A stretch of DNA of 64,000 bases, taken from assembly GCF_013201825.1 (NCBI RefSeq), contig NZ_CP053836.1, positions 2,666,001 through 2,730,000 of the forward strand, in the 5' to 3' direction. The position numbers were made by a program, and so were the translations under genes. Of the stretch, positions 6,016-42,325 are shown in pieces (position 1 is the first letter of the stretch; each line of letters begins with the position of its first letter). Below the pieces are notes generated by a model. That model was not told the DNA's origin and did no database searches. It saw nothing but the letters and a program-made list of their open reading frames with translations. The DNA is from Halarcobacter ebronensis (lineage in GTDB: Bacteria > Campylobacterota > Campylobacteria > Campylobacterales > Arcobacteraceae).

Positions 6016-6022
6016 ATTGCTA

Positions 6023-6853: not shown

Positions 6854-7492
6854 TTATTTTTTAGTAATTTTATATAAATAGTCTCCTAAAGTTTGAACCA
6901 CCTGGACAAGAACTATTAATATAATAACTGTATAAATCATTGTGTCAGTTTGGAATCTGTAGTACCCATATTTTATAGCTACATCTCCTAAACCTCCACC
7001 ACCAACGGCTCCAGCCATAGCTGAAAAACCAATAACTGTAATCAATGTTAGTGTAATAGCAGAGATTATGCTAGGAAGTGCTTCAACTAACATAACTTTA
7101 AAAATAATCTGCCAATCACTTGCTCCAAAAGATTTTGCAGCCTCAATTACTCCCTCTTCCACCTCTTTTAATGCACTCTCAATAAGTCTAGCGATAAATG
7201 GTGCCGCACCAATTGTAAGAGGTATAATTGCAGCAGTTGTTCCTATACTTTTTCCTATTAAAAATTTAGTTAAAGGGAAAAGAACAATCATCAAAATGAT
7301 AAAAGGGAACGATCTAAAAGTATTTATAATCACATCTAACACTGAGTAAATTTTCAAATTCTCTTTTAATCCACCCTTTGAGGTAAGAATTAAAACTATT
7401 GCAAAAATAAATCCAATAACAACTGCAAAAAAAGTTGAAACAAATGACATATAAATTGTCTCTACTAAGGCAGGTAATAAAATATCAACCAT
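6854..7492 (-). CDS. metI: Methionine ABC transporter permease
   Basis: The 212-residue inner-membrane permease has about five hydrophobic helices and the EAA loop motif (EAAKSFGASDWQIIFKVMLVEA), which docks on the ATPase. I chose the ATG at 7490-7492 rather than an in-frame start five codons upstream. GGGAGG lies 7 bases ahead of it, and the ATG overlaps the metN stop by one base (TAATG), typical of translational coupling. Confidence 0.92.
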   Translation of the reverse strand: MVDILLPALVETIYMSFVSTFFAVVIGFIFAIVLILTSKGGLKENLKIYSVLDVIINTFRSFPFIILMIVLFPLTKFLIGKSIGTTAAIIPLTIGAAPFIARLIESALKEVEEGVIEAAKSFGASDWQIIFKVMLVEALPSIISAITLTLITVIGFSAMAGAVGGGGLGDVAIKYGYYRFQTDTMIYTVIILIVLVQVVQTLGDYLYKITKK

Positions 7493-8448
7493 TACAAAAC
7501 CTCCCAAACAATATCATGCTGTTTTATATACTCTGTAACTTTTTCTTTATCCTTTTTATCAATGTTTATTACCATATTTCCAACAATGTGAGTGTTAATC
7601 TCTTCAAGTTTTCCCCATACAATATTAAAGTCCATATCAAGTTCCCTTGCCATTGTGGTTATAAAAGCTTGATATACATTATCTTTAGGAAAATACAATT
7701 TTATATTAACTCCCTCTTTTGGTACAACTTCAACTTCACCTAAAAACTCTTTCATTTTTTCATCAGGTTTCAAAAAAAGTTCCTCAGTATCATCAATACC
7801 AATTACATTTCCATGTTCTAATAAAAGAGCTCTTTTTGCAATCTGTTTTACAACTTCCATCTCATGGGTAACTAAAACAATTGTAATATTTAACTTCTCA
7901 TTAATCTTTTTTAAAAGATTTAAAATTGAAATAGTTGTATTTGGATCAAGTGCAGAAGTAGCTTCATCAGATAAAAGAATTTTTGGTTCTAAAGTCAAAG
8001 CTCTAGCTATTGCAACTCTTTGCTTCTGCCCTCCACTTAACTGATTTGGATAGGCTTTCTCTTTATCTTCTAATCCAACTAAAGATAAAAGCTCTCTAAC
8101 TTTTCTCTCAATTGCACTTTTTTCATAACCCCAAAGTTGCATTGGAAGTGCAATATTTTCATACACACTCTTTCTTTGAATAAGTGAAAAGTGTTGAAAT
8201 ATCATTCCTATATTTTTTCTAAAACTTCTTAGCTGCTCTTTTGATAGCTCTTTTATCTCTTTTGAATCAACTTCTAAAGAACCTGTACTATACTCTTCAA
8301 GCCCATTTAAGCACCTAAGAAGTGTAGATTTACCTGCTCCACTATGACCAACAATAGCAAAAATTTCCCCAGCTTTTATATCAATAGAGATATCATTTAA
8401 AACTTTTGACTCTCCATAATATTTATTAAGTTTTTTGATACTTATCAT
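7492..8448 (-). CDS. metN: Methionine ABC transporter ATP-binding protein
   Basis: The 318-residue ATPase shows Walker [11 protein letters not shown]-loop IFQHFSL, signature LSGGQKQR, Walker [13 protein letters not shown], the H-loop VTHE, and a C-terminal NIL-type domain after residue ~240. In MetN that domain binds methionine and inhibits transport when the cell is replete. It is the first gene of metNIQ. The ribosome-binding sequence lies inside a small palindrome (8455-8467). Confidence 0.94.
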
Positions 8449-8454
8449 AAAACA

Positions 8455-8467
8455 TCCTTATTAAGGA
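8455..8467 (-). promoter_or_regulatory. metN: Palindrome covering the metN ribosome-binding site
   Basis: TCCTTATTAAGGA is an inverted repeat whose AAGGA arm, read on the minus strand, is the metN Shine-Dalgarno, six bases before the ATG. It could fold back over the ribosome site or be a protein operator; it could also be chance in AT-rich DNA. Confidence 0.3.
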
Positions 8468-8635
8468 CGCTATGGTAGTAAATTTTTTATAAAGATAATG
8501 TTAAGTATCAATATAAATCTATAAATTATAGCTTAGAATCAATCTTTATAAAATCTTCAAATTACTTCAAAATAAACTAATCAAAAATGATTTATACTTC
8601 CTTTAGCTAAACAAATTTTGAAGAAAGGACTAAAG

Positions 8636-8728
8636 ATGTTTCTTACAGAGATTGCTATATTTGTAGCGTGTGGTCTTGTTGTATTTACAATCTTAAGTGG
8701 AATTGTAAGTGCTTTTGTTAGGGATTGA
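8636..8728 (+). CDS. 30-residue single-pass membrane mini-protein (paralog of 5855-5950)
   Basis: The frame begins MFLTEIAIFVACGL and ends SAFVRD. GAAAGGAC lies shortly before the ATG. One hydrophobic helix fills residues ~5-27, ending in a short charged tail. It shares the T-E-I, F-V, G-L, F-T and S positions with the mini-protein at 5855. The two flank the metNIQ operon in the same orientation. No known family is recognised. Confidence 0.6.
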   Translation: MFLTEIAIFVACGLVVFTILSGIVSAFVRD

Positions 8729-8800
8729 TTTGTAAAAATATTTTACAACTATTTAAAAGGTAAAAGCCTAAAAAGCTTGAGAATTAAGATATTTTGTTAT

Positions 8801-8910
8801 AAATCAAGGCGAAGAGAATTTTTTGTGAAGGAGCATACATATAGTATGTGACTGAATAAAAAATTTTATTCAACGAAGAGAAAGAGCAAAAGAGCTTGAT
8901 AAATCAAGCT
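8801..8910. repeat. REP/MITE-like structured intergenic element
   Basis: A palindromic core (CATAC-ATATA-GTATG, 8834-8848) sits inside longer partly complementary T- and A-rich arms. Two direct CGAAGAGA copies (8810-8817 and 8874-8881) bracket it. At the right end a second hairpin (AGCTTGA/TCAAGCT, 8893-8910, then TTTTT) lies against the rho stop codon. There is no coding potential. The layout resembles dispersed REP or MITE elements; copy number cannot be assessed from one window. Confidence 0.45.
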
Positions 8911-8915
8911 TTTTA
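8893..8915. terminator. Hairpin at the rho 3' end
   Basis: The 7-bp arms AGCTTGA and TCAAGCT enclose a 4-base loop. The U-tract is on the plus-strand side; on the minus strand, where rho is transcribed, the stem is followed by CTTTTGCTCTTT, so it may work in both directions. Confidence 0.5.
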
Positions 8916-10253
8916 CTCGTTCATAGAAGCAAAAAACTCCTCATTATTTTTAGTTTTTTGCATTTTTGAGTATAAGAATTTAAGAGCTTCAACTTCATCC
9001 ATTTGAGAAATTGCATTTCTTAAAATCCAAGTTTTTTGTAAAATATCTGGTGTTAATAAAAGTTCTTCTTTTCTTGTACCTGATTTAATTATGTCAAGGG
9101 CTGGATATACTCTTCTATTTGCCGCATTTCTACTTAGTACAACCTCAGAGTTACCAGTACCTTTAAACTCTTCAAAAATAACTTCATCCATTTTTGAACC
9201 AGTTTCAATAAGTGCAGTTGAAATAATAGTTAAAGAACCACCCTCTTCTATATTTCTAGCAGCTCCAAAAAATCTTTTTGGTTTATGTAATGCATTTGCA
9301 TCAACTCCACCACTTAGTACTTTTCCTGAACTAGGAGTTACAGTATTGTATGCTCTTGCCAATCTTGTAATAGAGTCAAGTAATATAACTACATCTTTTT
9401 TCATCTCTACAAGTCTTTTTGCTTTTTCTATTACAATCTCTGCAACTCTTACATGGTTGTGTGCTGGAAGGTCAAATGTTGATGAGTAAACTTCCCCTTT
9501 AACAGATCTTTGCATATCTGTAACCTCTTCTGGTCTCTCATCAATAAGTAAAACCATAAGGTGAGTATCTGGATGATTCCTCGTAATACCGTGAGCTAAC
9601 TCTTTTAAAAGTTCTGTTTTACCAGTTTTTGGAGGTGCAACTATAAGTCCCCTTTGTCCTTTACCCATTGGAGCAAAAAGATCAAGCATTCTACCTGTCA
9701 TTCTTGTTTGTTCATATTCAAAAGTGAATCTCTCTGTTGAATATAGTGGAGTTAGGTTATCAAAAAGTGGTCTGTTTTTTGATTCATTTATAGGAAGATA
9801 GTTTATCGCTTCAATCTTAAGAAGTGCATTATATTTTTCACTCTCTTTATTTGGAGGTCTAACTTGACCAGTTACAATATCTCCAGTTCTTAATGCAAAT
9901 TTTCTAATTTGTGTTGCAGATACATAAGAGTCATTTGAAGTATCAGAAAAGTTTCCATCTATTGCTCTTAAAAATCCAAATCCACCATCTTTTATCTCTA
10001 AAATACCTGTAAAAAGAATAAAACCGCCTTGATCTATTTGTGAACTTAAGATATTAAAGATAAGGTCTTGTCTTTTTAGTTCTTGTGGGTTTTCAACATC
10101 TAAATCTTTTGCTATTTTTAAAAGTTCTTCAAGGGGAAGTTCTCTTAATTGTTCAATCTTATATCCCTCTACGGGCACATGAGTTCTACTTTTCTTGCTA
10201 CCATTTACAGCTTTCGTAGTTTTTGTTTTAGTTTGAGTTTTTGACTCTTCCAT
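8913..10253 (-). CDS. rho: Transcription termination factor Rho
   Basis: This hexameric RNA-dependent helicase ends Rho-dependent transcripts. In 446 residues it shows the N-terminal helical domain ([16 protein letters not shown]), the RNA-binding cold-shock-like domain ([14 protein letters not shown]), Walker [12 protein letters not shown], Walker [17 protein letters not shown], and the Q/R-loop region [21 protein letters not shown]. The N-terminal ~30 residues are Lys/Thr-rich and variable. It is a separate unit from the peroxiredoxin gene upstream, which has its own terminator. Confidence 0.98.
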
Positions 10254-10380
10254 CAGATTTTTTTGCCTTTTAGATTACATATAAGTTATGTAGTTTTTTA
10301 TGTAGTTAACGTTCAGTGTTTTTTAAGTAGCGTAATTTTAGTCTTTATTTTTAAATTTGTCAATAAAAAGAGTAAACAAA

Positions 10381-10410
10381 TAAAAAAAGGTGTCTAAAAA
10401 TAGACACCTT
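10381..10410 (-). terminator. Rho-independent terminator of the peroxiredoxin gene
   Basis: Arms AGGTGTCTA and TAGACACCT form a perfect 9-bp stem with a 4-base loop. On the minus strand it is followed by seven U's. Confidence 0.9.
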
Positions 10411-10433
10411 GTGTTTAATTTATAGAGAGATTA

Positions 10434-11030
10434 TTATAAATCAGCTTCGTGTTTTCCTAAGTATTCAGCAACACCAGCAGTAGAAGCTTTCATACCTTCG
10501 TCACCTTTAGTCCAACCAGCAGGACAAACTTCACCATGTTCATTAGTAAAAATCATAGTATCAACCATTCTAATCATTTCATCAATATTTCTTCCTAATG
10601 GTAAGTCATTGATAACTGCATGTCTAATTGTTCCATCTTTGTCTATTAAAAAAGATCCTCTTAAAGCAACTGATTCTCCAAATAATACATCATAATCTTT
10701 TGAAATTTGTTTTGAAAGGTCTGCAACTAATGGGAATTTAACTCTTCCAATACCACCATTTTCAACTGGTGTTTCTCTCCAAGCAAAGTGAGAGAATTGA
10801 GAGTCAACTGAACAACCAATTACTTGAATACCTCTTGAAGAGAATTCTTCAATTCTTTTTGAGAATGCAATAATCTCAGATGGACAAACAAATGTGAAAT
10901 CTAGTGGGTAGAAAAATAGTACAGCACCTTTTTCACCAATATTATCATATAAATTAAAATCTTCAACGATTGAACCATCTGCTAATACAGCTGTTGCTGT
11001 AAAATCTGGAGCTTTTTTTGTTACTAACAT
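10434..11030 (-). CDS. Typical 2-Cys peroxiredoxin (AhpC/TSA family)
   Basis: The 198-residue protein reduces H2O2, organic peroxides and possibly peroxynitrite. The peroxidatic Cys49 lies in FYPLDFTFVCPSE and the resolving Cys in HGEVCPAGW near residue 171; both are intact. Thioredoxin is the usual reductant, and no ahpF is adjacent. It is a monocistronic unit with its own terminator, divergent from the ferredoxin gene. Confidence 0.95.
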   Translation of the reverse strand: MLVTKKAPDFTATAVLADGSIVEDFNLYDNIGEKGAVLFFYPLDFTFVCPSEIIAFSKRIEEFSSRGIQVIGCSVDSQFSHFAWRETPVENGGIGRVKFPLVADLSKQISKDYDVLFGESVALRGSFLIDKDGTIRHAVINDLPLGRNIDEMIRMVDTMIFTNEHGEVCPAGWTKGDEGMKASTAGVAEYLGKHEADL

Positions 11031-11297
11031 GTAATTTCCTTTTATTATAATTTGTTTTGTGGGAATAATTATAATATAATAAATTTAAAAAAAATAGAGT
11101 TTATTATTCCAGTTTCAAAACTTAAGATATGTTTTATTTTTGGAAAAAAATTATCCATTACTAGAATAGTGTCAATTTTTAATAAGTGTTAATTATAGTT
11201 AATAGTTAATATTAACTTAACTTATGTATGGACAATTTAAAGTAAAATTTAATTTTTTATGTGATAAAGTTTACTAAAATTTACAAGGAGTCAAAAA

Positions 11298-11555
11298 ATG
11301 GCAGTAAGAATTACTGATATTTGTATTAACTGTGACGCATGTTTAGATGAGTGTCCTACTGAATCAATCGTTGATAATGATGAAAACCCAACTGGTGAAG
11401 ATATTTATTATGTAAATCCTGAGACTTGTACAGAGTGCGTTGGGGATAATGATTCTCCTGCATGTGCTGATGCATGTCCAACTGAAGGGTGTATTGTATG
11501 GAGTAACCCATCAACTGATGGTGCGGTTGACGGACAACCAGTAGTAGAAGACTAA
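11298..11555 (+). CDS. 2[4Fe-4S] ferredoxin, YfhL-like
   Basis: The 85-residue ferredoxin starts AVRITDICINCDACLDECPT. The first cluster motif is CINCDACLDECP. The second is split by an insertion (CTECVGDNDSPACADACP), as in the YfhL/Alvin-type ferredoxins. The C-terminal tail is acidic. The redox partner is unknown. An ACAAGGAG ribosome site precedes the ATG and a strong terminator follows, so it is a single-gene transcript. Confidence 0.92.
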   Translation: MAVRITDICINCDACLDECPTESIVDNDENPTGEDIYYVNPETCTECVGDNDSPACADACPTEGCIVWSNPSTDGAVDGQPVVED

Positions 11556-11581
11556 TCTATAAATATAATTAAAATTTTAAG

Positions 11582-11619
11582 AAGGCAAGTAGTATTTTTC
11601 AAACTACTTGCCTTTTTTT
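11582..11619 (+). terminator. Rho-independent terminator after the ferredoxin gene
   Basis: AAGGCAAGTAGT pairs with ACTACTTGCCTT over a 9-base loop and is followed by a T-run. Confidence 0.92.
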
Positions 11620-11624
11620 ATTTT

Positions 11625-11636
11625 TTTAGATATAAT
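11625..11636 (+). promoter_or_regulatory. ndk: Probable sigma-70 -10 element for ndk
   Basis: TTTAGATATAAT ends in a consensus TATAAT at 11631-11636, directly after the preceding terminator and 33 bases before the ndk start. A near-identical TTAGATATAATC precedes argD. Confidence 0.55.
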
Positions 11637-11669
11637 CCGCGGCTTAAAAATTAAAAGAGGAATTTACCT

Positions 11670-30981: not shown

Positions 30982-31713
30982 ATGAAAAAAAATACAATGA
31001 AAAAAGCTACAGTAGTTTTATTAACTTCAACAATTCTATTTACAGGATGCGCACAAAAAGATCCTGAACGATATAATAACTATGAAAATACTCAAAAAGG
31101 TGTGGGAATAGGAGCCTTTTTAGGAGCACTTATTGGAGCAGTAGCAAGTGGGGGAAATCACGCAAAAGGAGCTGTAATAGGTGGCGTAGTTGGTGGTGCA
31201 CTTGGTGGAACTATTGGTTACTCTATGGATGAACAAGCTGGGCAAATAGCAAAAGAACTTGATGAAAAAGTTGATAATACTCCTCAAGCAGTGGTAAATC
31301 CAGATAATGATATAGTTATTTCAAATACCCAAAAGTACGTAAAAATCATGCTAAGAGATAAAATGGTATTTGATACAAACTCTTCAATCCCTACCCAAGA
31401 AGCTGCAAGAAAAATTGAAAAAATCTCTAATGTATTAACAAAATATCCAGATACAATAGTTCAAGTTGTAGGTTTTACAGATAGTAGAGGAACTTATGAA
31501 TATAACCAAAAACTATCAGAACAAAGAGCAAAAAGTGTTGGAGATATTTTTTATAACAATGGCATCCAAAATCAAATATATTCAAAAGGGTGTTCTTACA
31601 ACAAACCAATAGTTCCAAATAAAACAAAAGAGGATATGGCATTAAATAGAAGAGTGGAGATATATTTATATCCAAATACTGAATCAGTAATTGATACTTG
31701 CAGTAATCAATAA
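30982..31713 (+). CDS. OmpA-like lipoprotein with a glycine-zipper domain
   Basis: The 243-residue protein has a lipoprotein signal (TVVLLTSTILFTGCA, lipid Cys near 23), a glycine-zipper membrane-active segment at residues ~40-85 (GVGIGAFLGALIGAV and GGVVGGALGGTIGYS), and a C-terminal OmpA domain (~125-235) with VVGFTDSRGTYEYNQKLSEQRA and the late NRRVEIYL. It probably tethers the outer membrane to peptidoglycan. It is followed by a terminator at 31745. Confidence 0.92.
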   Translation: MKKNTMKKATVVLLTSTILFTGCAQKDPERYNNYENTQKGVGIGAFLGALIGAVASGGNHAKGAVIGGVVGGALGGTIGYSMDEQAGQIAKELDEKVDNTPQAVVNPDNDIVISNTQKYVKIMLRDKMVFDTNSSIPTQEAARKIEKISNVLTKYPDTIVQVVGFTDSRGTYEYNQKLSEQRAKSVGDIFYNNGIQNQIYSKGCSYNKPIVPNKTKEDMALNRRVEIYLYPNTESVIDTCSNQ

Positions 31714-31744
31714 AAAAGTTTTAGGAAATAAATTTAAGTTGATT

Positions 31745-31775
31745 AGCTATAGAATTGCCCACTGTAGCTTTTTTA
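31745..31775 (+). terminator. Terminator of the OmpA-like lipoprotein gene
   Basis: AGCTATAG and CTGTAGCT pair (one G-U) over a 9-base loop, then TTTTTTA. The homologous hairpin at 39228-39258 has a longer, perfect stem. Confidence 0.75.
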
Positions 31776-31831
31776 TCTCTTTTTATATTATAGAAAATAT
31801 ATTACAATCGATAAATAAGATTATATCTGAT

Positions 31832-31862
31832 ACGGTAAGGCTAGGAGAGAACCTTACCATAA
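31832..31862 (-). ncRNA. Porin 3'-UTR hairpin with a C/U-rich loop, copy A
   Basis: On the minus strand TATGGTAAGG pairs with CCTTACCGTA, using one U-G wobble, around a loop containing TTCTCTCC. It lies about 25 bases after the porin A stop. The same hairpin follows porin B. There is no U-tract, so it is not a standard terminator. Confidence 0.5.
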
Positions 31863-31885
31863 CAGAGTACATAAGTTTTTATTTT

Positions 31886-33043
31886 TTAAAATTTATATAC
31901 TAATTTTGCCCATAATTCTTTAAAATCACTTGCATCTAAATCATGATCTCTCTCTTCATAAACTAAAGAAGCTTTAAGACCTTTTAATGCACCATTAAAT
32001 TTATAATCTGCATATGCGATTTTAAAGTTTGCATCATAATTTGTTGCATAATCAATATCAATATATCTTGCACCAATTTTTAAACCTACATTTTGAAAAG
32101 TATAATTTAAATCAACTGCATAGTGATCTGATTCAGAATATGTCCCTGATTCGATTATTGCTGTAGTAAAGATTGTTGGTCTTGATCCGCCACCAACTAC
32201 ACCCCATTGTGCAGTTCCATCTCTAACTTCTGCATATGCAACATATGCATTTAGTCCACCTAGACCAATTCCAGCTTTTAAACCATAAAAGTCCGCATCT
32301 TTTGTAGCACTATCTTTGTAATCTGTGTCACCATATTGAACTGCTAAATTATAAGTAATATCATCATACTTATTTTTATAATTTGCCTCTAAATAATACA
32401 TGTCATGTGATAAATCAGCTTCACCGTAAGCAAAGGTTAATGTTGTATTTGGAATTGATTGATTTATAATACCTGTAGTATAGGCATAATCACCCTTTAA
32501 ATCTTTAAACTCAGCTATATCTCCAAAACCATCTGTTCTGTTTTGGAACTTATCAATATATGCCATAAAAAGTGTTGTATCTGGCACATCTTTACTTATT
32601 AATGTTGAACCTTCAAAAGATTGTTTAATAAGTCTTGAACTACTACTTTTCATTAAGGGCAAGGCTATGTATTGTCTACCAACTTTTAATGTAGTTTTAC
32701 TTAAGGTATAACTCAAATATGCTTGTGATAAAACTGCCCCATTACCATACATATCACTAGAAAATGCATTTTTTGCTTCATCATCTGCATTTACTGCATT
32801 AGAACTTTGAAATCCAAATCCTAGTTTAAATCCATAAAAGAAATTTGATTCATAATTTAAATCAATCCCTAAATTTAAAATGCTACCTTTTTTTGTGCCA
32901 TGCCCTATATCTCTATCAAAATAATAAGCATTTAATGCTCCATCATATTTACCAGTTGTTAAAGCCTCTTGCAAAGTATCTGATGCAAAACTTACAGTTC
33001 CCAGTGCAACTATTGCAATTAATGATAATTTTAATGTTTTCAT
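31886..33043 (-). CDS. Outer-membrane porin, copy A
   Basis: The 385-residue beta-barrel protein has a signal peptide (LSLIAIVALGTVSFASD), alternating amphipathic strands throughout and a C-terminal LWAKLVYKF ending in Phe, the usual outer-membrane insertion signal. It resembles the OprD-like/Campylobacterota porin group (YFDRDIGHGTKKGSILNLG). It is highly similar along its length to the porin at 39404. It is the last gene of the dsbL-dsbI-assT-porin set and could admit aryl sulfates to the periplasm, which is inference. Confidence 0.88.
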   Translation of the reverse strand: MKTLKLSLIAIVALGTVSFASDTLQEALTTGKYDGALNAYYFDRDIGHGTKKGSILNLGIDLNYESNFFYGFKLGFGFQSSNAVNADDEAKNAFSSDMYGNGAVLSQAYLSYTLSKTTLKVGRQYIALPLMKSSSSRLIKQSFEGSTLISKDVPDTTLFMAYIDKFQNRTDGFGDIAEFKDLKGDYAYTTGIINQSIPNTTLTFAYGEADLSHDMYYLEANYKNKYDDITYNLAVQYGDTDYKDSATKDADFYGLKAGIGLGGLNAYVAYAEVRDGTAQWGVVGGGSRPTIFTTAIIESGTYSESDHYAVDLNYTFQNVGLKIGARYIDIDYATNYDANFKIAYADYKFNGALKGLKASLVYEERDHDLDASDFKELWAKLVYKF

Positions 33044-33100
33044 AATGTATCCATTTAATTATTTTTCTAAAATAGGGATTAATTCCCTATTTTAAGTTGG

Positions 33101-34873
33101 TTATTTTCCAAATAATAAATCTGGTTTAACAATTCCTGTTCTATATCCAAACTCTTTTGCGCTTGAGTAATTAACTTTAATCTCATTAGCTAAATATGGT
33201 TTACCATTTTTATCTAATTTAATTTCATCAATAAAACCACCATTTGCTTTGTTGAATTTCATCAAATATGTATTAAGACTTGCAACATGAAATGAATCTT
33301 TTTCTTTATCATAATTAACATTTCCAGTTACAATAGAGAACCAATCAAATCCTCTATCTTTTCCATATTCCCAAAGTTGTTTAACAGTCATATTATTTTC
33401 ATCAATTTTATATGCAACTGCTCTTGAGTATTTATCTTCTACCATTGCAGGTTGTTCATTTCCTCTACCTTCACCATTATCAAATACAGTCAAATATCCT
33501 TTTCCTAATTCAGGATTTAAATAAGCTGTATGTTGAGTAAATGACCAGTCAAAATCTGTATTTTCGCAAGAGTTAGGTCCACATTCAAGTTTTTTCCCAT
33601 TTTTATCAACAGGAATTAATACTTTTTTAGCAAGTTCACCTTTCCATCCATTAAAAGAAGATAAAATCCATTTAACTTTTTTATCTCTTGTGATTTTTGC
33701 CATACCTTGGTGTCTTAAAGATACAACAATACTATCATCACTATCATTATAGTATACAGAGTTTGTATGTGCCCAGTTTCTTCCAGCACCTACACCAGGT
33801 ACATCTCCCCAAGGTGCACTATCATCAATTTCAGTATGTTTTGCATTTTCATCAACACTCATACAAACAGCTCTTTGATCTAATGCTTTTAATAAAACAT
33901 CTCTACCATTATCAAGAATTTTATTTAAATCCCATACATCAACAACTTGTCCTGTTTGATCAATTTCAATAATATGATCTTTTAAAGTATGTACAATTTT
34001 CCCATCTGGTCTTAAATAGTTTTGTTTACCAACACGAATAAATACATCACCGTTTGATGCTTCTACAATTTCATGAGCACCATCTGAAAATCCTCTTGGT
34101 AATCTTCTGTCATAAACTTTTCTTCCCATGATGTCATATCTCATATATCTTTGACCTTGCATAAAAAGAATATCTCCATTTTTTAGCTGTCTATAAGACA
34201 TACTGAAACCTAATTTATCTACATTCCAGCTATCTTTTTGAAATAATTTTGTTGTATCAAGATGCCATCTAATGTCACCATTTTGGTCAATAATCTCTGC
34301 TGTACTTGGATAAGAGAAAGGCATTGCTCCACCAGGTCTTCTCCAATTAATGTCAGGATGAAATTCATAATATATATTGTTTACAAAATATAATCTATCT
34401 TTAAACTCTTTTGATGATTTAACTGGAGTATATGTAGTTGTGTTATTTGTTCTATACTCACCTGGAAATGTAACAATTGGATTAATATAAAGTTTATATG
34501 TCTCTTTAATCTCTTTACCTTGATATTTATATGTTACATTAATTTTATTATTGTAATCAGCATATAGACCAAATACTGGAATCCCATCATGTGTTCTAAT
34601 TGCTTGTTGTGGAACTTTATACGAAAGAGCCGCTCCTCCGTTTTTAGGTTCTATTGAAACACTAACATCTGTAATTGCTTTTCCATTTAACCCAATAATA
34701 GCTGTTTGCGGAGCCATTTCATAAGGATTTGAGATAATAGCTCCCAATTGCCCTTGAGATTTTTCTGCATCAAAATACAGTCCATAATCTCCTTTAGCCA
34801 TACTAAAAGTTGGAGAAACGCTTACAACCATACTTGCAAGTACAAGACTTGAAACAATTTTTGAAATTTTCAT
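33101..34873 (-). CDS. assT: Periplasmic arylsulfate sulfotransferase
   Basis: AssT moves sulfate between phenolic compounds without PAPS, through a sulfo-histidine. The 590-residue protein has a signal peptide (VSSLVLASMVVSVSPTFSMA) and an Ig-like N-terminal domain, then a propeller. Residues matching the Escherichia coli active site are visible: His267 (GAHEIVEASNG), His369 (NWAHTNSVYY), Arg387 (VSLRHQG) and the catalytic His448 (SFTQHTAYL). Cys431 and Cys436 match the conserved disulfide pair, a target of DsbL. It lies 50 bases after dsbI. Confidence 0.92.
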   Translation of the reverse strand: MKISKIVSSLVLASMVVSVSPTFSMAKGDYGLYFDAEKSQGQLGAIISNPYEMAPQTAIIGLNGKAITDVSVSIEPKNGGAALSYKVPQQAIRTHDGIPVFGLYADYNNKINVTYKYQGKEIKETYKLYINPIVTFPGEYRTNNTTTYTPVKSSKEFKDRLYFVNNIYYEFHPDINWRRPGGAMPFSYPSTAEIIDQNGDIRWHLDTTKLFQKDSWNVDKLGFSMSYRQLKNGDILFMQGQRYMRYDIMGRKVYDRRLPRGFSDGAHEIVEASNGDVFIRVGKQNYLRPDGKIVHTLKDHIIEIDQTGQVVDVWDLNKILDNGRDVLLKALDQRAVCMSVDENAKHTEIDDSAPWGDVPGVGAGRNWAHTNSVYYNDSDDSIVVSLRHQGMAKITRDKKVKWILSSFNGWKGELAKKVLIPVDKNGKKLECGPNSCENTDFDWSFTQHTAYLNPELGKGYLTVFDNGEGRGNEQPAMVEDKYSRAVAYKIDENNMTVKQLWEYGKDRGFDWFSIVTGNVNYDKEKDSFHVASLNTYLMKFNKANGGFIDEIKLDKNGKPYLANEIKVNYSSAKEFGYRTGIVKPDLLFGK

Positions 34874-34923
34874 TTTTTATCCTTTGTTTTGTAATATTAT
34901 TTCTATAATCAAAATATAAATAA

Positions 34924-35619
34924 CTAATTTATATCTTCAATAGTTTGATTATTATCTTTTCTAAAAAGATCTCTAATAATCCAAGAGATACACATAGCAC
35001 CAAGTAAAATGAAACAAACAATAAAAGCAAAAAGACAAGCTTGAGCCATATTTACTAAATGCATAGATGGAATTAAATACCACCCCTCTGAATAAAAGTC
35101 TATTAACCATTGTTGTAAAGCACTAAACTCTACACCTTCTGGTGGAATTGGATTATCAAATCCACAAGCTCCAGTTGGTAAAAACCAATCAGGAAACCAA
35201 CTATCTAATGGCAATCCCAATGGAAAACTTGGCTCTGCTGAACATCCTTGCACACCAAATGGATCATCTCCATGTGCTGCATGGTGGATTGTATTTAGTT
35301 TAATGCTATACATAATCCCTTGGATAATTCCCCAAAAACCTAAGATATAACCTACTATTTTTAATACAATTTGAGAAGGTTTAATTGATGCAATAATCCC
35401 TCCAAAAACCATACAAAAAAATGCAAATCTTATATATACACATTGTTCACAAGGTGCCATATATACATAGTGTTGAAAAAGATTATGTGCAGTTAAAAGA
35501 AGCATCATCGCTGCTGCTGCCATAACTATCCACAAAAATCTTGCATCTTGCCATCTTGCAATGGTATTTATTGGAGAGGTTTTTAAATCTCTCCAAAAAT
35601 CTGTTATTTTACAATTCAT
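34924..35619 (-). CDS. dsbI: DsbI/DsbB-like disulfide-generating membrane protein
   Basis: The 231-residue protein has about five membrane helices. One Cys pair is in APCEQCVYIRF (CxxC at the first periplasmic loop). Further cysteines are in VQGCSAEP and TGACGFDNP, in the long second periplasmic loop. This fits DsbB/DsbI, which passes electrons from a DsbA-type oxidase to quinone. It lies 11 bases after dsbL and before assT, as in the assT-dsbL-dsbI locus of enterobacteria. It is larger than DsbB because of extended loops. Confidence 0.88.
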   Translation of the reverse strand: MNCKITDFWRDLKTSPINTIARWQDARFLWIVMAAAAMMLLLTAHNLFQHYVYMAPCEQCVYIRFAFFCMVFGGIIASIKPSQIVLKIVGYILGFWGIIQGIMYSIKLNTIHHAAHGDDPFGVQGCSAEPSFPLGLPLDSWFPDWFLPTGACGFDNPIPPEGVEFSALQQWLIDFYSEGWYLIPSMHLVNMAQACLFAFIVCFILLGAMCISWIIRDLFRKDNNQTIEDIN

Positions 35620-35630
35620 CTTTTATCTCC

Positions 35631-36290
35631 TTATTTTTTTAGAAGATATTCAACTAACTCAACCATATAATCTCTTGATTTTATAGCTTGTGTTTTTAGT
35701 AAATATTTACCATTTACTACAAATGCTGGAATCCCTTGGATTTTTGCAATTGGGTATGCAGGCTCCCATCTTTTTAGTAACTCTTGTACTTCTGGTGATG
35801 CAACTTCTTTCTCAAAATCTGCTTTACTTGAAATCCCTAAAATCTCAAATCCTGCTTTATAGAAATCATCTTCACCACTATCCCATCTTTGATTTTTATC
35901 ATGGTATGCTTTATAGTATGTAAATTTCATTTTTTTAAGTAATCCATGTTTATCAAACACACTTGTGATTCCTGCTTTTATATCTCTTGCACGTGCTACT
36001 GCCATTAGGTTTGAACCTTGTTGTCCATATTTACCTTTTGAATACAAATGCCATACTTCAAAGCTTGCCTCTGGTTTATCTTTAAGTACTTGTGTAATTA
36101 CTGGTTCTGTTACTGCTTTATCATATTTATAACAAAACGGACAAGTAAAACTAAATACTTTTACTATTGTGTTTTTTTCCACATTTAGAGGTTGATCTAA
36201 TTTAGTATAATTTACTCCCTCTTGAAAATCCGCTCCTAATAGTGCTACTGCTGTTATTAGCAATGCTCCTACTTTTCTTTTTAACATCAT
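35631..36290 (-). CDS. dsbL: DsbL/DsbA-like thiol oxidase
   Basis: The 219-residue periplasmic protein has a signal peptide (VGALLITAVALLGAD) and a thioredoxin fold with an inserted helical domain. Active site CPFC is at residues 50-53 (FSFTCPFCYKYDK) and the cis-Pro loop is IQGIPAFVVNG. Its context marks it as the dedicated oxidase of AssT. The TTTTACTCC complement supplies a GGAGT ribosome site before the double ATG. An eroded copy of its 5' end lies at 40985-41147. Confidence 0.9.
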   Translation of the reverse strand: MMLKRKVGALLITAVALLGADFQEGVNYTKLDQPLNVEKNTIVKVFSFTCPFCYKYDKAVTEPVITQVLKDKPEASFEVWHLYSKGKYGQQGSNLMAVARARDIKAGITSVFDKHGLLKKMKFTYYKAYHDKNQRWDSGEDDFYKAGFEILGISSKADFEKEVASPEVQELLKRWEPAYPIAKIQGIPAFVVNGKYLLKTQAIKSRDYMVELVEYLLKK

Positions 36291-36408
36291 TTTTTACTCC
36301 TTTTTTTCTATTATGATGAAAGTATAAACAAAAGGAGTAATAAATTTATCAAAAAAAGATATAAAAAAAATTTTTTCTTAAATTTTAATTTTAATTTTTG
36401 AAATAAAG

Positions 36409-38223
36409 CTATATTTCAATTATAAAGATGGCACCATCATGGCCATTTTCAACGGTTATTTTACCTTTGAGAAGATTGTTAGCAAGTATTTTAGCAGTAT
36501 ATAATCCAAGTCCTGTGCCAAATTTTTTATCTTTTGTACTAAAATATGGATCAAAGATATAGGGCAAAATATTTTCAGGAATACCTCCAGCATTGTCACT
36601 TATTATAATTTTATTCTGTTCAATCATTATATCTATTCGTCTATTTTCTACGCTATTTTGCATCAAAGCATCAATTGCATTATTCAAAACAATAATCAAG
36701 ATTTGAATTAGTTCATTTTTATAGCTTTCATAATAATCAAAGTTGTTTATATCTAAAAAAACTTTTATTGAATACTTTTTACAACGATTATCTATCAAAT
36801 CTAATGAATATTTACAAACGTCTTCAAGCTTAAAGCGTTCTACTATACCTTTTTTTGAGAAAAAACTACTAAAATCTTCAATAGTATTAGACATATATTT
36901 AAGTTGTAAATTTGCTTCATTAACTTTCTTGTTTAGATAATTATTTGTTAATTTGTTAGTCTCAAAGGCTAACTGAAGATTTGCAAGTATCATGGTTAAA
37001 TGATTTAAGGGTTGCCTCCATTGATGAGCAATAGAAGCTATCATTTCACCCATTGTTGCAAACTTTGATTGTGTAAGCATTATTTTCTCTTGTTTGATAT
37101 ATTCTTGTTTTGCTTGTTCTCTTTCCTCTATAATAGAACGTATTTTAAGGTATAAAGCCATTGTTAAAGCAAAAGATTCTATACACGTAAAAATCTGTTT
37201 TGCATACAAAAATTCAAAATAAAAATCTAACATTAAAAGCTTTGAGATATTTAATACAATTAAATATATTGTAAATCCTAAAAATCCCAAAGTATAAAAA
37301 AGTGCAGAATAGTTTTTGTGAGTAAAGGCATAAATTCCTGCCATTACATAAACAACATAAAGGAATGATGAGTAGTCAATAGAAGAATGTATCTCAGTTA
37401 GTGGTATTAATAAAACCATTGTAAAATTTAAAAATAAATTCAATTTTGGCATATCTCTTTTAGTATTTAAAAACTCTTTTGTAAAAATTATTGAAAAGAG
37501 CATCATACTATAAGACACCATCTCTTTTAAAAAGAAGTTTCCTAAATTAGGATAATCTTTCAATAAAATAAAAAAATATTGAAAGAGATCAGAAGTTACA
37601 ATAATAACCCATGTCTGATATAGACCTAAATATAGATACCCTTTATCTTTCATCGATAAATACATAAAAAAACTATACATTGCCATAGTTAATAAAATAC
37701 CAAAAAACAAACCGTTATGATATAACCTCTCTTTTGATATTATAAAATCATCAACACTATTTTTATCAATTATATACATATAACTAAACTGATCAAGAAT
37801 TTTTTTTGTCTCAGCATGAATATAGATTGTCACTTTGTCATAAGCTGGAATGGTAAATATAGATGATTTTTTAATATACTTATTATTATTAATATTCTCT
37901 TTTAAAATAGTTTTACTACCATGAACTACATAAAAATTTATTGAAGCTCTTTCCCATCTAAAAAGAAATATTCTATCAAGAGGAGTACTACTATTATTTT
38001 CTAAATCTAGTTTCATCCACAAATTATTATCTTTATTACGATGTAAGATTCTCCTAAATCTCTTTATCTCTTGAAACTTAGAAGGATCATTCAAGGCTTC
38101 ATTAAGATTCTCTATATTATAAGAAAGACCAATCTCTTTATAAATAGGAACAGTTGAAGGTGAAATATCTATAGCTTTTAAATTAAATAAAAATAGTACA
38201 ACAAATAATAATAAAAATCTCAT
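36409..38223 (-). CDS. 7TM-DISM sensor histidine kinase
   Basis: The 604-residue kinase has a signal peptide, a periplasmic 7TMR-DISMED2-like beta domain (~25-165; RFRRILHRNKDNNLWMKLDLENN and FLFRWERASINFYVVHG fit carbohydrate-binding-like folds), seven helices (~170-365), and a kinase core. The core shows His in GEMIASIAHQWRQPL, N box NELIQILIIVLNNAIDAL and G2 box FGTGLGLYTAK. It lies 5 bases after the regulator gene and is their downstream partner. Its position next to dsbL suggests control of the sulfotransferase genes, by inference. Confidence 0.88.
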   Translation of the reverse strand: MRFLLLFVVLFLFNLKAIDISPSTVPIYKEIGLSYNIENLNEALNDPSKFQEIKRFRRILHRNKDNNLWMKLDLENNSSTPLDRIFLFRWERASINFYVVHGSKTILKENINNNKYIKKSSIFTIPAYDKVTIYIHAETKKILDQFSYMYIIDKNSVDDFIISKERLYHNGLFFGILLTMAMYSFFMYLSMKDKGYLYLGLYQTWVIIVTSDLFQYFFILLKDYPNLGNFFLKEMVSYSMMLFSIIFTKEFLNTKRDMPKLNLFLNFTMVLLIPLTEIHSSIDYSSFLYVVYVMAGIYAFTHKNYSALFYTLGFLGFTIYLIVLNISKLLMLDFYFEFLYAKQIFTCIESFALTMALYLKIRSIIEEREQAKQEYIKQEKIMLTQSKFATMGEMIASIAHQWRQPLNHLTMILANLQLAFETNKLTNNYLNKKVNEANLQLKYMSNTIEDFSSFFSKKGIVERFKLEDVCKYSLDLIDNRCKKYSIKVFLDINNFDYYESYKNELIQILIIVLNNAIDALMQNSVENRRIDIMIEQNKIIISDNAGGIPENILPYIFDPYFSTKDKKFGTGLGLYTAKILANNLLKGKITVENGHDGAIFIIEI

Positions 38224-38228
38224 ATTGT

Positions 38229-38894
38229 TTATTTTATATCAATTCTATAGCCCATTTTTGAGATATTAGAAATAATATCTTCTGGTAATTTTTGTCTTAG
38301 ATTCCTAACTAAAGATCTAAGGGCTGCATTACTCATTCCATCTTCCCAAATAGTACTTTCAATTTGTTCATAAGATACTACGTGATTTCTATATTTTAAT
38401 AATAATTCAAGGAGTTGTCGCTCATGTGCATCCAATTTTTTTTCTTTACCCTCAACTATTAAAATATGGTTATATAAATCATAAGTAGAACAGCTATTTA
38501 AAGATATTATAGATGTAGTGTCTTTTAAATTTTCAATACATTTATTAAGAGTGTTTTTTAAGTCTATTAATGTAATAGGCTTTAAAAGATATTTTATTAA
38601 CTGCAATTCTACAGCTTTTAAAAAATACTCTACATTAGTGTACGCAGTGGTAATTACAATTGGTGTTTTATTATCGACTTTTCTAATTTTTTCAGCAAGT
38701 TCTAAACCATTCATTCCAGGCATCTCTATATCAGTAATTATAATATTAGGTTTTTGTTTTAGATATTCAACATATGCTTCATAACCATCTTTAACTGCAA
38801 TTACATTGATACGCATAAATTCCAATGCTTCAACAACATTTTCCCTAATAAAATCTTCATCTTCAGCATATAAAACTGTTAAATTTTCAAACAT
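38229..38894 (-). CDS. OmpR-type response regulator of the sulfotransferase locus
   Basis: The 221-residue protein has a complete receiver (AEDED acidic pocket, phospho-Asp in IIITDIEMPG, Thr in ITTAY, Lys in YLLKPI) and a winged-helix domain ending ISNISKMGYRIDIK. It shares the recognition segment NAALRSLVRNLRQK with the regulators at 19986 and 26224. It heads the operon with the kinase at 36409. Confidence 0.88.
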   Translation of the reverse strand: MFENLTVLYAEDEDFIRENVVEALEFMRINVIAVKDGYEAYVEYLKQKPNIIITDIEMPGMNGLELAEKIRKVDNKTPIVITTAYTNVEYFLKAVELQLIKYLLKPITLIDLKNTLNKCIENLKDTTSIISLNSCSTYDLYNHILIVEGKEKKLDAHERQLLELLLKYRNHVVSYEQIESTIWEDGMSNAALRSLVRNLRQKLPEDIISNISKMGYRIDIK

Positions 38895-39053
38895 ATTAAA
38901 CTCCTACATATCTATAAAGATTTTATCAAAAAAAAATATATAAACTCTTTAATAATTTATACTATTTTCTAAAGAGTTTTTTATTTCACTTTTTTCACAC
39001 TATTTTTTTTTACAATTTCTTATAGATTTTTAACCCTATTATAAAATCTATTT

Positions 39054-39258
39054 TAAAGATGTATGGTAAAGTTCTCTCCATCGACACGAATTAGTATCCA
39101 TACATCTTTAAATAATTATACCCTTGTGTAATAATTGTTTTCAGTATTTAGGCTTATCTAGTAAATATTTTATTGAACGATAAAACAACACATTAACTAT
39201 ATTAAAAAAAATAAATTTAAATCAATTAGCTACAGAGCTGCCTCTCTGTAGCTTTTTT
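39054..39258 (+). ncRNA. Candidate small RNA between the sulfotransferase regulator and porin B
   Basis: No coding frame is visible in this 0.5-kb gap. It begins with a perfect 13-bp stem (TAAAGATGTATGG at 39054-39066 with CCATACATCTTTA at 39098-39110) around a 31-base loop containing GTTCTCTCC. It ends at a strong rho-independent terminator at 39228-39258. C/U-rich loops of this kind are used by the Helicobacter sRNA RepG to bind G-rich mRNA leaders. The promoter and transcription are unproven. Confidence 0.4.
39228..39258 (+). terminator. Rho-independent terminator, plus strand
   Basis: AGCTACAGAG pairs perfectly with CTCTGTAGCT over a 6-base loop, followed by TTTTTT. It is the duplicate of the hairpin that ends the OmpA-like gene at 31745, yet no plus-strand protein gene precedes it here. 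Confidence 0.85.
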
Positions 39259-39344
39259 ATTTTATAGAACTGATTTTATCGCTTCTAATCCTGCATACAA
39301 ATTTTTTAATATTCTATTTATATTTACTAGAAAGCTTAGGGTTT

Positions 39345-39379
39345 GTTATGGCAAGGATAGGAGAGAACCTTACCATAAC
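39345..39379 (-). ncRNA. Porin 3'-UTR hairpin with a C/U-rich loop, copy B
   Basis: On the minus strand GTTATGGTAAGG pairs with CCTTGCCATAAC through one U-G wobble around TTCTCTCCTAT. It lies about 25 bases after the porin B stop and matches the hairpin after porin A. Confidence 0.5.
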
Positions 39380-39403
39380 ATAATATATGAGCTTCTATTT
39401 TTT

Positions 39404-40561
39404 TTAAAATTTATATATTAATTTTGCCCATAATTCTTTAAAATCATTCGCGTCCAAGTCATGATTTTCCTCTTCATAAACTAAAGATGCAGTAAGACCT
39501 TTTAAAGCACCTTTGAATTTATAATCAGTATATGCAAGTTTATAATCTGCACTATAGTTAGTTGCAAAATCTATATCAATATATCTTGCTCCAACTTTTA
39601 AACCTAAATCTTGAAAAGTATAATTCACATCTATTGCATATTGTTCAGATTCAGAATATATCCCTGCATCAATTATAGAAGAAGTATAAAGTACTACCTT
39701 TCCTCCTCCTCCAAGAACGCCCCATTGAGCGGTGCCATCATTAACTTCAGCATATGCTACATATGCATTTACTCCACCAATACCAAAATCAGCTTTTAAT
39801 CCATAAAAATTTCCATCTTTTGTGTTACTATTGTCATAATCTGTTTCACTATATTGAGCTGAAAGACCATAAGAGATATCATTATATTTATTTTTATAAT
39901 TTGCTTCTAAATAGCTCATATCATATGACTCATCTAATTCACCATATGCTACTGTTAAAATTGTATTTGGAATAGATTTATTTATAACACCTGTAGTATA
40001 AGCATAATCACCTGTTAAATCTGCAAAATCTGCAATTTTTCCAGCACCATCTGTTCTGTTTTGATATTTATTTACATATGCCACAAATAGTGTTGTGTCT
40101 GGGATATCATTACTTATTAAAGTTGAACCTTCATATGATTGTCTAATAAGTCTTGAACCACTACTTTGCATTAATGGTAAATGAATATATTGTCTACCAA
40201 CTTTTAATGTAGTTTTACTTAATGTGTAACTCAAATATGCTTGAGATAATACTGCCCCATTACCATACATATCCCATGATAATGCTTTTTTACCATCATC
40301 ATCTGCATTTACTGCATTTGAACTTTGAAATCCAAATCCTACTTTAAATCCATAAAATGAATTTGATTCATAATCTAAATCAATTCCTAGATTTATAATG
40401 CTACCTTTTGATGTCCCGTGTCCAATATCTCTATCAAAATAATAAGCTCTTAAAGCACCTTCATATGTACCACTTGTTAAGGCCTCTTGTAGAGACTCAG
40501 AGGCAAAAGAACATGTTCCCATTGCCATAATTGCAACAATTGATAATTTTAATGTTTTCAT
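39404..40561 (-). CDS. Outer-membrane porin, copy B
   Basis: This 385-residue protein is the same length as the porin at 31886 and closely similar throughout. It has a signal peptide (LSIVAIMAMGTCSFASE) and the C-terminal LWAKLIYKF. It keeps an open frame although the other genes of its duplicated unit are destroyed, so it has probably been kept by selection or given another role. Differences cluster in the presumed loops (for example the VVLYTSSIIDAG segment). What drives its transcription is unclear, because only remnants lie upstream. Confidence 0.87.
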   Translation of the reverse strand: MKTLKLSIVAIMAMGTCSFASESLQEALTSGTYEGALRAYYFDRDIGHGTSKGSIINLGIDLDYESNSFYGFKVGFGFQSSNAVNADDDGKKALSWDMYGNGAVLSQAYLSYTLSKTTLKVGRQYIHLPLMQSSGSRLIRQSYEGSTLISNDIPDTTLFVAYVNKYQNRTDGAGKIADFADLTGDYAYTTGVINKSIPNTILTVAYGELDESYDMSYLEANYKNKYNDISYGLSAQYSETDYDNSNTKDGNFYGLKADFGIGGVNAYVAYAEVNDGTAQWGVLGGGGKVVLYTSSIIDAGIYSESEQYAIDVNYTFQDLGLKVGARYIDIDFATNYSADYKLAYTDYKFKGALKGLTASLVYEEENHDLDANDFKELWAKLIYKF

Positions 40562-40617
40562 TATATTTCCATTTAACTATTTTATAAAATAGGGAACCTT
40601 CTCCCTATAATAAATAC

Positions 40618-40708
40618 ATTATTTCCAAATTGTAAATCTGGTCTAACCATACTTTTTGTATACAAACTCTTTAGGATTTAAGTACTTAACTTTAATTAGT
40701 AAACCCTA
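40618..40708 (-). pseudogene. assT: assT remnant (C-terminal end only)
   Basis: Read on the minus strand, this stretch gives IKVKYLNPKEFVYK, then after a frameshift MVRPDLQFGN. It matches the AssT C terminus IKVNYSSAKEFGYRTG...IVKPDLLFGK. All upstream assT sequence is missing. It sits next to porin B exactly as assT sits next to porin A. Confidence 0.85.
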
Positions 40709-40960
40709 CAATCTTTAATACAATTTAAGATAGTTTTTTTACAGCGACGATTCCACCTAAAATCATACAAAAAAATGTAAATCTAATATAACTATACTGC
40801 CTACTAAAAGGTTATATTGATTAATACTAAAATAATTTATGTGCAGTAAATTGTCACAACTGTCACATAATCAACTTCCTTGTCATCTTGCCATTATTAT
40901 TTTGAGAGTTCTTATATCTCTTTACACTCGTTTTAGAGTTAATATTTTGTCTATTATTAA
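40709..40960 (-). pseudogene. dsbI: dsbI remnant (N-terminal half)
   Basis: This stretch aligns with 35345-35619 of the complete copy. Shared strings include TTTAATACAATTT, ATCATACAAAAAAATG-like sequence, TTATGTGCAGT and CTTGCCAT. The reading frame is broken by indels, and the first CxxC codons are lost. It directly follows the assT remnant after a large deletion. Confidence 0.75.
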
Positions 40961-40984
40961 GTAGTTGTATAATTATTGATTTTA

Positions 40985-41147
40985 TTAATACTTTATATTT
41001 TTAACAAAATGGACAAGTAAAACTAAATACTTTTTTGATAGATTAAGAGAGATTATTTTGTCTTAAAAAATTGCTCCTCTTAAACCTCGTTCCTATGAGT
41101 ATTACCATTGCTGTCAACAATACTTAAACTCCGTTTTTTAACATCAT
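40985..41147 (-). pseudogene. dsbL: dsbL remnant (N-terminal end with the active-site CPFC)
   Basis: The minus strand still reads VFSFTCPFC, identical around the active site to DsbL at 35631, but the next codon is now TAA where DsbL has Tyr (TAT). The start region (TTTTTTAACATCAT complement) and leader also align with 36230-36330. The rest of the gene is deleted. Confidence 0.85.
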
Positions 41148-41314
41148 CTTCAACTCCTTTCTTCCTGTTATAATAAAATCATATCAGAAAGAAATCTAAA
41201 AAAAATTTTATTCTTAATTTAAAATATTAATTTATAAAATAAATCTATTTTAAAGTTTTATAGGTAGAAAAATGCATATAGATTTACAAAGATATATTTG
41301 GATAAACTCCATTT

Positions 41315-42325
41315 ATGAAAAGAGAAAAATTTAGTTTTTATTTTAACAACTGGCTTTATGGCAATGATGGCTACTATGCAAACTATAAAAATATAGGTAA
41401 AGAGGGAGATTTTTATACCTCTGTTTCAACCTCAGCATTTTTTGGTGGAACCATTGGCAAAAAGATTGTTGATACAATAAAAAATAAAGAATTACCAAAA
41501 GATACTACTATCTTGGAAATTGGTGCACATCATGGTTATTTATTGGCAGACATAATACAATTTATTTATACTTTAGAACCAACACTTTTAGAAACACTAA
41601 ATTTTGCAATCGTTGAAAGATTTGAAAATCTTCAAACTCAACAGAAAAAATATTTGCAAGACTCTTTTGGTGATGCCATAAGATTAAAACACTACAATGA
41701 TATTTCTGAAGTTAAATTACCAAATGCTTTTATTGTAGCAAATGAAATTTTTGATGCTTTTGCTTGTGAACTTGTTTTTACAAAAGAGAAAGAACTTCAA
41801 ATAGCTTATGTAAAAAATCACAAAATAACATTTGAGCCTTGTAATGATGAGATAATTAAAAAACACTGTGAGAAATATAAAATCAAAAAAGGGGAAATCG
41901 CCGTTGGTTATGAAGAGTTTGCAAAAACTCTTTATGAAAATATAGATAATTTTGTTTTTCTTACTTTTGATTATGGAGATAGAGTTCCACGAAATGATTT
42001 TTCAACTAGGATATATTCAAAACATGAAGTATTTCCTATCTTTGAAAAAGGGCTAGATTTAGAAAAGTATTATAAAAAAGCAGATATTACTTATGATGTC
42101 TTTTTTGTTCATTTAATTGACTGTTTTAAAGCTCTTGGAGTAGAAAAAGTTTTGTTTAAAACTCAAGTTGAAGCTTTAATAGAGTTTGGAATTACTGAAC
42201 TTCTTGAAATTTTACAAAAAAATGTTGATGATACAACCTATTTAAGGGAGGCTCAAAAGGTGAAAACCTTAATTGAACCTACAGGAATGGGAGATAGATT
42301 TAAGATGTTACTTGTAAAAAAATAG
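41315..42325 (+). CDS. Class I SAM-dependent methyltransferase, MidA/NDUFAF7 family
   Basis: The 336-residue protein fits COG1565 (DUF185). It has an N-terminal YFNNWLYGNDGYYANYKNIGKEGDFYTSVS, the SAM-binding ILEIGAHHGYLLADI, and a central VANEIFDAFACE motif. The mitochondrial homolog methylates an arginine of complex I subunit NDUFS2, so a role in NuoD modification is plausible. It sits just beyond the eroded duplication and starts at an ATG with no strong ribosome site. Confidence 0.85.
   Translation: MKREKFSFYFNNWLYGNDGYYANYKNIGKEGDFYTSVSTSAFFGGTIGKKIVDTIKNKELPKDTTILEIGAHHGYLLADIIQFIYTLEPTLLETLNFAIVERFENLQTQQKKYLQDSFGDAIRLKHYNDISEVKLPNAFIVANEIFDAFACELVFTKEKELQIAYVKNHKITFEPCNDEIIKKHCEKYKIKKGEIAVGYEEFAKTLYENIDNFVFLTFDYGDRVPRNDFSTRIYSKHEVFPIFEKGLDLEKYYKKADITYDVFFVHLIDCFKALGVEKVLFKTQVEALIEFGITELLEILQKNVDDTTYLREAQKVKTLIEPTGMGDRFKMLLVKK

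Follow-up and report, generated by a model that had tools for sequence, protein, structure and literature searches.

The locus described here lies in the window, a 64,000-nt stretch of the Halarcobacter ebronensis genome, and its genes are all on the minus strand. Across both copies of a repeated segment the gene order on this strand is porin 2, RR1, HK1, dsbL, dsbI, assT1 and porin 1, and all seven genes are intact and backed by Pfam matches. Copy 1 encodes both arylsulfotransferase domains (PF05935 and PF17425) in a single protein, with DsbB-like and CXXC DsbA-like proteins adjoining. The features are listed below by window position.

31726-31776, plus strand: terminator-like hairpin of copy 1; 85% identity to 39209-39260, weak fold (z -0.55)
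31834-31869, minus strand: porin 1 3' hairpin, loop containing UUCUCUCC; fold z -6.1 (31820-31880), 23 nt the same as in the copy-2 hairpin
31886-33043, minus strand: porin 1, OprD family, 385 aa; PF03573 E 6.4e-16
33101-34873, minus strand: assT1, predicted arylsulfate sulfotransferase, 590 aa; PF05935 E 1.4e-111, PF17425
34924-35619, minus strand: dsbI1, DsbB family; PF02600 E 2.7e-19
35631-36290, minus strand: dsbL1, DsbA-like, CPFC; PF01323 E 1.5e-9
34942-36302, minus strand: tract 99.3% identical to C1:715104-716464 (L009 11105-12465); differs at 10 of 1361 positions, identity falling to 47% and 35% in the flanks
36409-38223, minus strand: HK1, histidine kinase, between the copies; PF07695, PF02518, PF07696
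38229-38894, minus strand: RR1, response regulator; PF00072, PF00486
39056-39109, minus strand: hairpin upstream of RR1 with a loop complementary to the 3' hairpins of both porins; fold z -5.1 on the minus and -6.2 on the plus strand (39050-39115), duplex -30.0 kcal/mol
39209-39260, plus strand: terminator-like hairpin of copy 2; blastn homology, fold z -4.2 on the plus strand, terminator scan
39344-39380, minus strand: porin 2 3' hairpin; fold z -6.5 (39335-39390)
39404-40561, minus strand: porin 2, intact, OprD family, 385 aa; PF03573 E 1.8e-16, 76% aa identity to porin 1, dN/dS 0.28
40622-40696, minus strand: assT 3'-end remnant; 79% to 33105-33181, 65.3 bits against a shuffle maximum of 35.6
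40701-40847, minus strand: dsbI remnant, codons 43-91, with stops; tblastn E 1.6e-12, 66% DNA identity
40950-41147, minus strand: dsbL remnant, codons 1-72, with stops and indels, CPFC then a stop; tblastn E 3.6e-11
41148-41243, minus strand: homologue of the dsbL upstream region, ribosome-binding site retained, 22-nt gap; alignment, within the 95.1-bit block

The layout of copy 1 resembles the AssT-DsbL-DsbI operon of uropathogenic E. coli and Salmonella and the C. jejuni dsbA2-dsbB-astA genes, as outlined in a passage of PMC4460558, in that AssT is accompanied by a dedicated DsbA-like/DsbB-like pair. It differs from the operon described there in that an OprD-family porin gene is part of the unit and that the genome holds three dsb sets in total, one of them a relic. 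A literature search found no paper on this Halarcobacter locus.

Homology and decay in the second copy

The sequence-only reading had described the DNA beyond RR1 as an eroding second copy of the sulfotransferase locus in the same order and orientation, and alignment of the two segments bore this out. Using blastn, 39209-41243 matched 31726-36407 collinearly in plus/plus blocks: 31726-31776 to 39209-39260 (85% identity), 31828-33181 to 39344-40696 (81%), 35351-35436 to 40705-40790 (78%) and 36074-36407 to 40949-41243 (66%). That reading had named similarity in the porin gene alone as the result that would speak against a second copy; instead, three blocks outside the porin scored 95.1, 70.7 and 65.3 bits while the best of 500 dinucleotide shuffles reached 35.6. 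A fourth block (35547-35592 to 40879-40921) scored 32.8 bits, above the 95% point of the shuffles (31.9) and below their maximum, and was counted solely for collinearity, its score being within the shuffle range. All the predicted parts of copy 2 were located: the terminator, the 3' hairpin, the intact porin and the end of AssT, followed by a piece of dsbI and the start of dsbL. In translated searches, DsbI was recovered over codons 43-91 (tblastn E 1.6e-12) and DsbL over codons 1-72 (E 3.6e-11). The AssT C terminus, which the sequence-only reading had recognized from its peptide, held up as DNA (33105-33181, 79%) but was weak as protein (tblastn E 0.063), and the AssT part of copy 2 amounts to about 77 bp in all.

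Of the genes in copy 2, all but porin 2 have been broken by big deletions, indels and stops, much as had been proposed. The equivalent of 33182-35350, which in copy 1 spans the larger part of assT together with the 3' half of dsbI, is missing apparently in one piece, and most of 35593-36073 is also without an equivalent. In the dsbL remnant the CPFC motif is followed by a stop, and two further stops precede it, one at codon 8 and the other near codon 40. The 753 bp past porin 2 (40562-41314) have a G+C content of 23% and contain 16-26 stops per frame in all six frames, with a longest open run of at most 45 codons and a single ORF of at least 40 aa in the ORF list (41 aa). No intact assT, dsbI or dsbL reading frame was found in copy 2 in the ORF list, by tblastn or in the six-frame stop counts. 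Differences in the dsbI remnant fell on the three codon positions 16, 11 and 23 times (of about 50), and 111 of 212 differences between the porins were at third positions. Such codon-position profiles alone do not prove relaxed selection in the remnant, and our claim of decay is therefore based on the stops, indels and deletions.

Porin 2 is the sole intact gene of copy 2. It scored 60.7 bits against the OprD profile (Pfam cut-off 25), and comparison with porin 1 gave a dS of 0.53, a dN of 0.14 and a pairwise dN/dS of 0.28. The next-closest porin was 41% identical in the 15 other genus genomes (E 1e-20) and 52% identical in 397 other order genomes (E 1e-60). Porin 2 may have been retained because it takes up a different substrate or a further one, and it is probably transcribed alone, from a start inside or upstream of the relic.

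Competing explanations and related loci

Taken together, the alignments make it very probable that 39209-41243 is a decayed second porin-assT-dsbI-dsbL copy that arose by segmental duplication within this lineage. The second enzyme set would have decayed because it was redundant beside the AssT-DsbL-DsbI set that was kept alongside. Two related loci of this kind could also have been acquired horizontally side by side with one then decaying, and separate acquisition of two similar loci would leave the same appearance. AssT is indeed patchy, found in 2 of 16 genus genomes (E 1e-20; Halarcobacter ebronensis and G011) and in 38 of 398 genomes in a sample of the order (E 1e-50; at most 3 candidates scored per genome, with G011 absent from that sample's match list), 18 of which, our genome included, have two or three matches. 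However, porins 1 and 2 are far closer to one another than to any other porin found (76% as against at most 52%), and the terminator, hairpin and upstream region are common to both copies, so that we judge separate acquisition very unlikely. Chance likeness of AT-rich DNA as the source of the similarity outside the porin, for which the low G+C of the remnant might speak, has next to no probability: the 500-shuffle control, which the three blocks exceed by far, rules it out, and the blocks are also collinear and come with protein-level matches.

A further reading, compatible with duplication and decay, is that the 753-bp remnant is still alive as regulatory DNA, serving as the promoter and a long 5' leader of porin 2. 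Porin 2 needs a promoter now that the former operon genes are gone, and the region upstream of dsbL, along with its ribosome-binding site, aligns with that of copy 1. Against this, promoter-like matches in the scan were not enriched (64 against a shuffle mean of 70.1), the conserved upstream stretch is AT-rich, and a nearby promoter-like site at 40636-40607 would be enough for porin 2. We consider a living leader unlikely.

It had been suggested that related strains might carry both copies complete. Of the 16 regions with AssT annotated in 15 other genomes (9.4-19 kb each), not one held two complete units. These annotated regions are not a random set, as several were chosen for having more than one AssT and further AssT matches in the order sample fall outside of it; a contig search also found four distant loci in named relatives, again outside the annotated set. 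No close relative shows an intermediate state of copy-2 decay. Eight of the 16 regions (L069, L072-L076, L078 and L082, all from the same order) hold two or more assT genes or fragments near each other, resembling our locus in this respect, but there it is assT genes that are repeated whereas here it is the porin-assT-dsbI-dsbL unit. In three of the 16 (L072, L073 and L082; genomes G087 and G100) assT is split into several frames, for which sequencing error is a possible cause. In L073 a histidine kinase gene is split as well, and G087 and G100 belong to another family. Across the order, then, neither repeated nor broken assT genes are rare.

Decay of this kind of locus is also described in C. 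jejuni, where a passage of PMC4460558 reports that astA/dsbA2 have decayed in type A2 and A3 strains. The likeness is that the sulfotransferase is lost, with or without the oxidase, and the neighbours remain. The difference, going by the same passage, is that in the A2 and A3 strains the only locus decays, while in Halarcobacter a duplicate decays and a full copy stays. In its account of four screened Arcobacter strains, the same review (PMC4460558) gives them as lacking classical DsbA and DsbB.

The two-component system and a probable dsbL-dsbI exchange

The sequence-only reading had called the locus a former tandem duplication. The eroded second copy stands, but a simple tandem arrangement is left unsupported because the 2.8-kb HK1-RR1 segment (36408-39208), which is without a counterpart in copy 2, splits the copies. 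Homology between the copies ends beside the HK1 stop codon, and searches for traces of HK1 and RR1 beyond copy 2 gave no match in 40562-41314 (E 10) or 41101-41420 (E 1). HK1-RR1 would have been either inserted between tandem copies or entirely lost from copy 2. The system is of a different type from that of the assT2 locus and from that of the G011 assT locus, which has HK2/RR2-type genes. Of 103 other genomes of the family, none had an HK1 match at E 1e-90 (12 candidates scored per genome, among the matches listed), and the closest relatives found of HK1 and RR1, 49% and 56% identical, are elsewhere in the same genome (L095 6626-9221). These paralogues adjoin genes that by eye resemble a molybdenum-type reductase operon.

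Searching the genome itself uncovered a second complete assT locus about 2 Mb away (C1:709-716 kb; L009 5161-12453), with dsbL, dsbI, HK2, RR2, assT2 and a porin on a single strand. AssT1 and AssT2 are 46% identical (42% by tblastn) and the porins of the two loci are deeply diverged, whereas dsbL-dsbI of copy 1 and of the distant locus differ at 10 positions in 1361 bp, 8 of them synonymous (dS 0.04 and 0.02). The borders of this near-identical tract are sharp, with identity going from 99.3% over 1361 bp to 47% and 35% in the flanks. This pattern suggests gene conversion or copying between copy 1 and the distant assT locus, which would have taken place well after the duplication. Of the 31 informative dsbI sites, at which L1 and L2 agree against G011, the remnant has the L1/L2 base at 20, the G011 base at 9 and a base of its own at 2. 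As it sides mostly with L1/L2, the remnant appears to have split off before the intact pairs separated from each other, which places the duplication before the exchange. Two observations bear on the course of the exchange: many related loci hold a dsb pair nearby, which matters for conversion versus insertion at the recipient, and outgroup genomes polarise the dsb differences both ways, which matters for the donor. At the three dsb differences that can be aligned with the remnant, the remnant carries the base of the distant locus at all three. The dating of the locus that had been proposed is not supported, since the dsb pair of copy 1 seems to have been exchanged later and its divergence from the remnant cannot simply be used for this.

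Porin 3' hairpins and the regulator leader

Each porin gene is followed by a strong hairpin (z -6.1 for porin 1 and -6.5 for porin 2). Over 23 nt of the 5' arm and loop the two hairpins are identical, while the 3' arm has diverged. When the genome was searched with a 15-nt core allowing at most one mismatch, four sites were found, three of which are exact and at this locus. The third exact site is inverted and lies inside the hairpin 5' of RR1, directly after a promoter-like site of a kind not enriched relative to shuffles. The exact 15-nt motif occurred in 1 of 104 family genomes, our own, and in none of the 103 others. The 10-nt core GGTTCTCTCC had six matches in the genome, two of them the porin hairpins, one in an open frame and three in one common context, which we take to be 23S rRNA. 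An Rfam search of 31000-42000 returned one match, below the curated threshold (E 0.27). On the plus strand, 39056-39257 holds AT-rich promoter-like DNA, a hairpin and a terminator with no long ORF, and could encode a small RNA.

The porin hairpin and the RR1-leader hairpin can pair over 18 nt, one of these pairs being G-U. The predicted duplex of -30.0 kcal/mol was the best non-self pairing among 8526 window tiles, ahead of a runner-up at -22.1, and 2000 shuffles produced no value as low. Against pairing, the site is some 160 nt away from the start codon of RR1, and cofolding of the full hairpins left both separate, with energies equal to the separate values (-41.4 for porin 1 and -38.1 for porin 2), in a model that has loop-loop contacts outside its scope. 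A tentative reading, which we consider unlikely, is that the 3' hairpins of the porin mRNAs make a first loop-loop contact and then pair with the hairpin that probably begins the RR1 mRNA, and that porin transcripts so tune their own regulator in trans. The shared hairpin element may be a reason for keeping the porin end of copy 2. A DNA element copied in inverted orientation, or a site bound by a protein, would give a similar picture, and from the sequence alone antisense pairing is possible and is a lead.

No accepted equivalent of the pairing was found in 14 other porin loci (exact words of at least 11 nt, the ten longest per locus), two of which, L009 and L054, are from the same genome. 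In L092 a 17-nt match (6022-6038 and 7444-7460) was rejected as an equivalent. It is a direct repeat with one copy in the kinase-porin intergenic DNA, before the porin gene and the adjoining kinase gene, and the other downstream of the porin and before the next gene; because this downstream copy sits beyond the porin's terminator-like hairpin, a shared operator is likelier than RNA pairing. A 126-nt repeat in L054 was rejected as well, as it stems from two similar kinase-like genes in tandem. These genes face a porin gene (7219-11655) and carry the exact repeat at their ends.

A precedent is the CJnc180/CJnc190 antisense sRNA pair of C. jejuni, a species without Hfq and ProQ, for which PMC8687705 describes pairing of the two RNAs and their processing by RNase III. 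In that account both partners are sRNAs, encoded on opposite strands at a single locus, while here they would putatively be a porin 3' hairpin and a regulator leader hairpin (PMC8687705).

Overall, the decay of copy 2 follows an ordinary course of genome evolution, in which two details were unexpected. It gives a view of the turnover of a sulfotransferase-porin set: the enzyme is lost along with its folding helpers, the porin persists, and the helper pair that is left comes to match the pair of a distant locus almost exactly. The 753-bp relic could pass for plain intergenic DNA, and the dsb divergence could be misapplied for dating. The kept porin ends, complementary to the regulator leader, offer a lead on possible control by RNA in this group that would be cheap to test.
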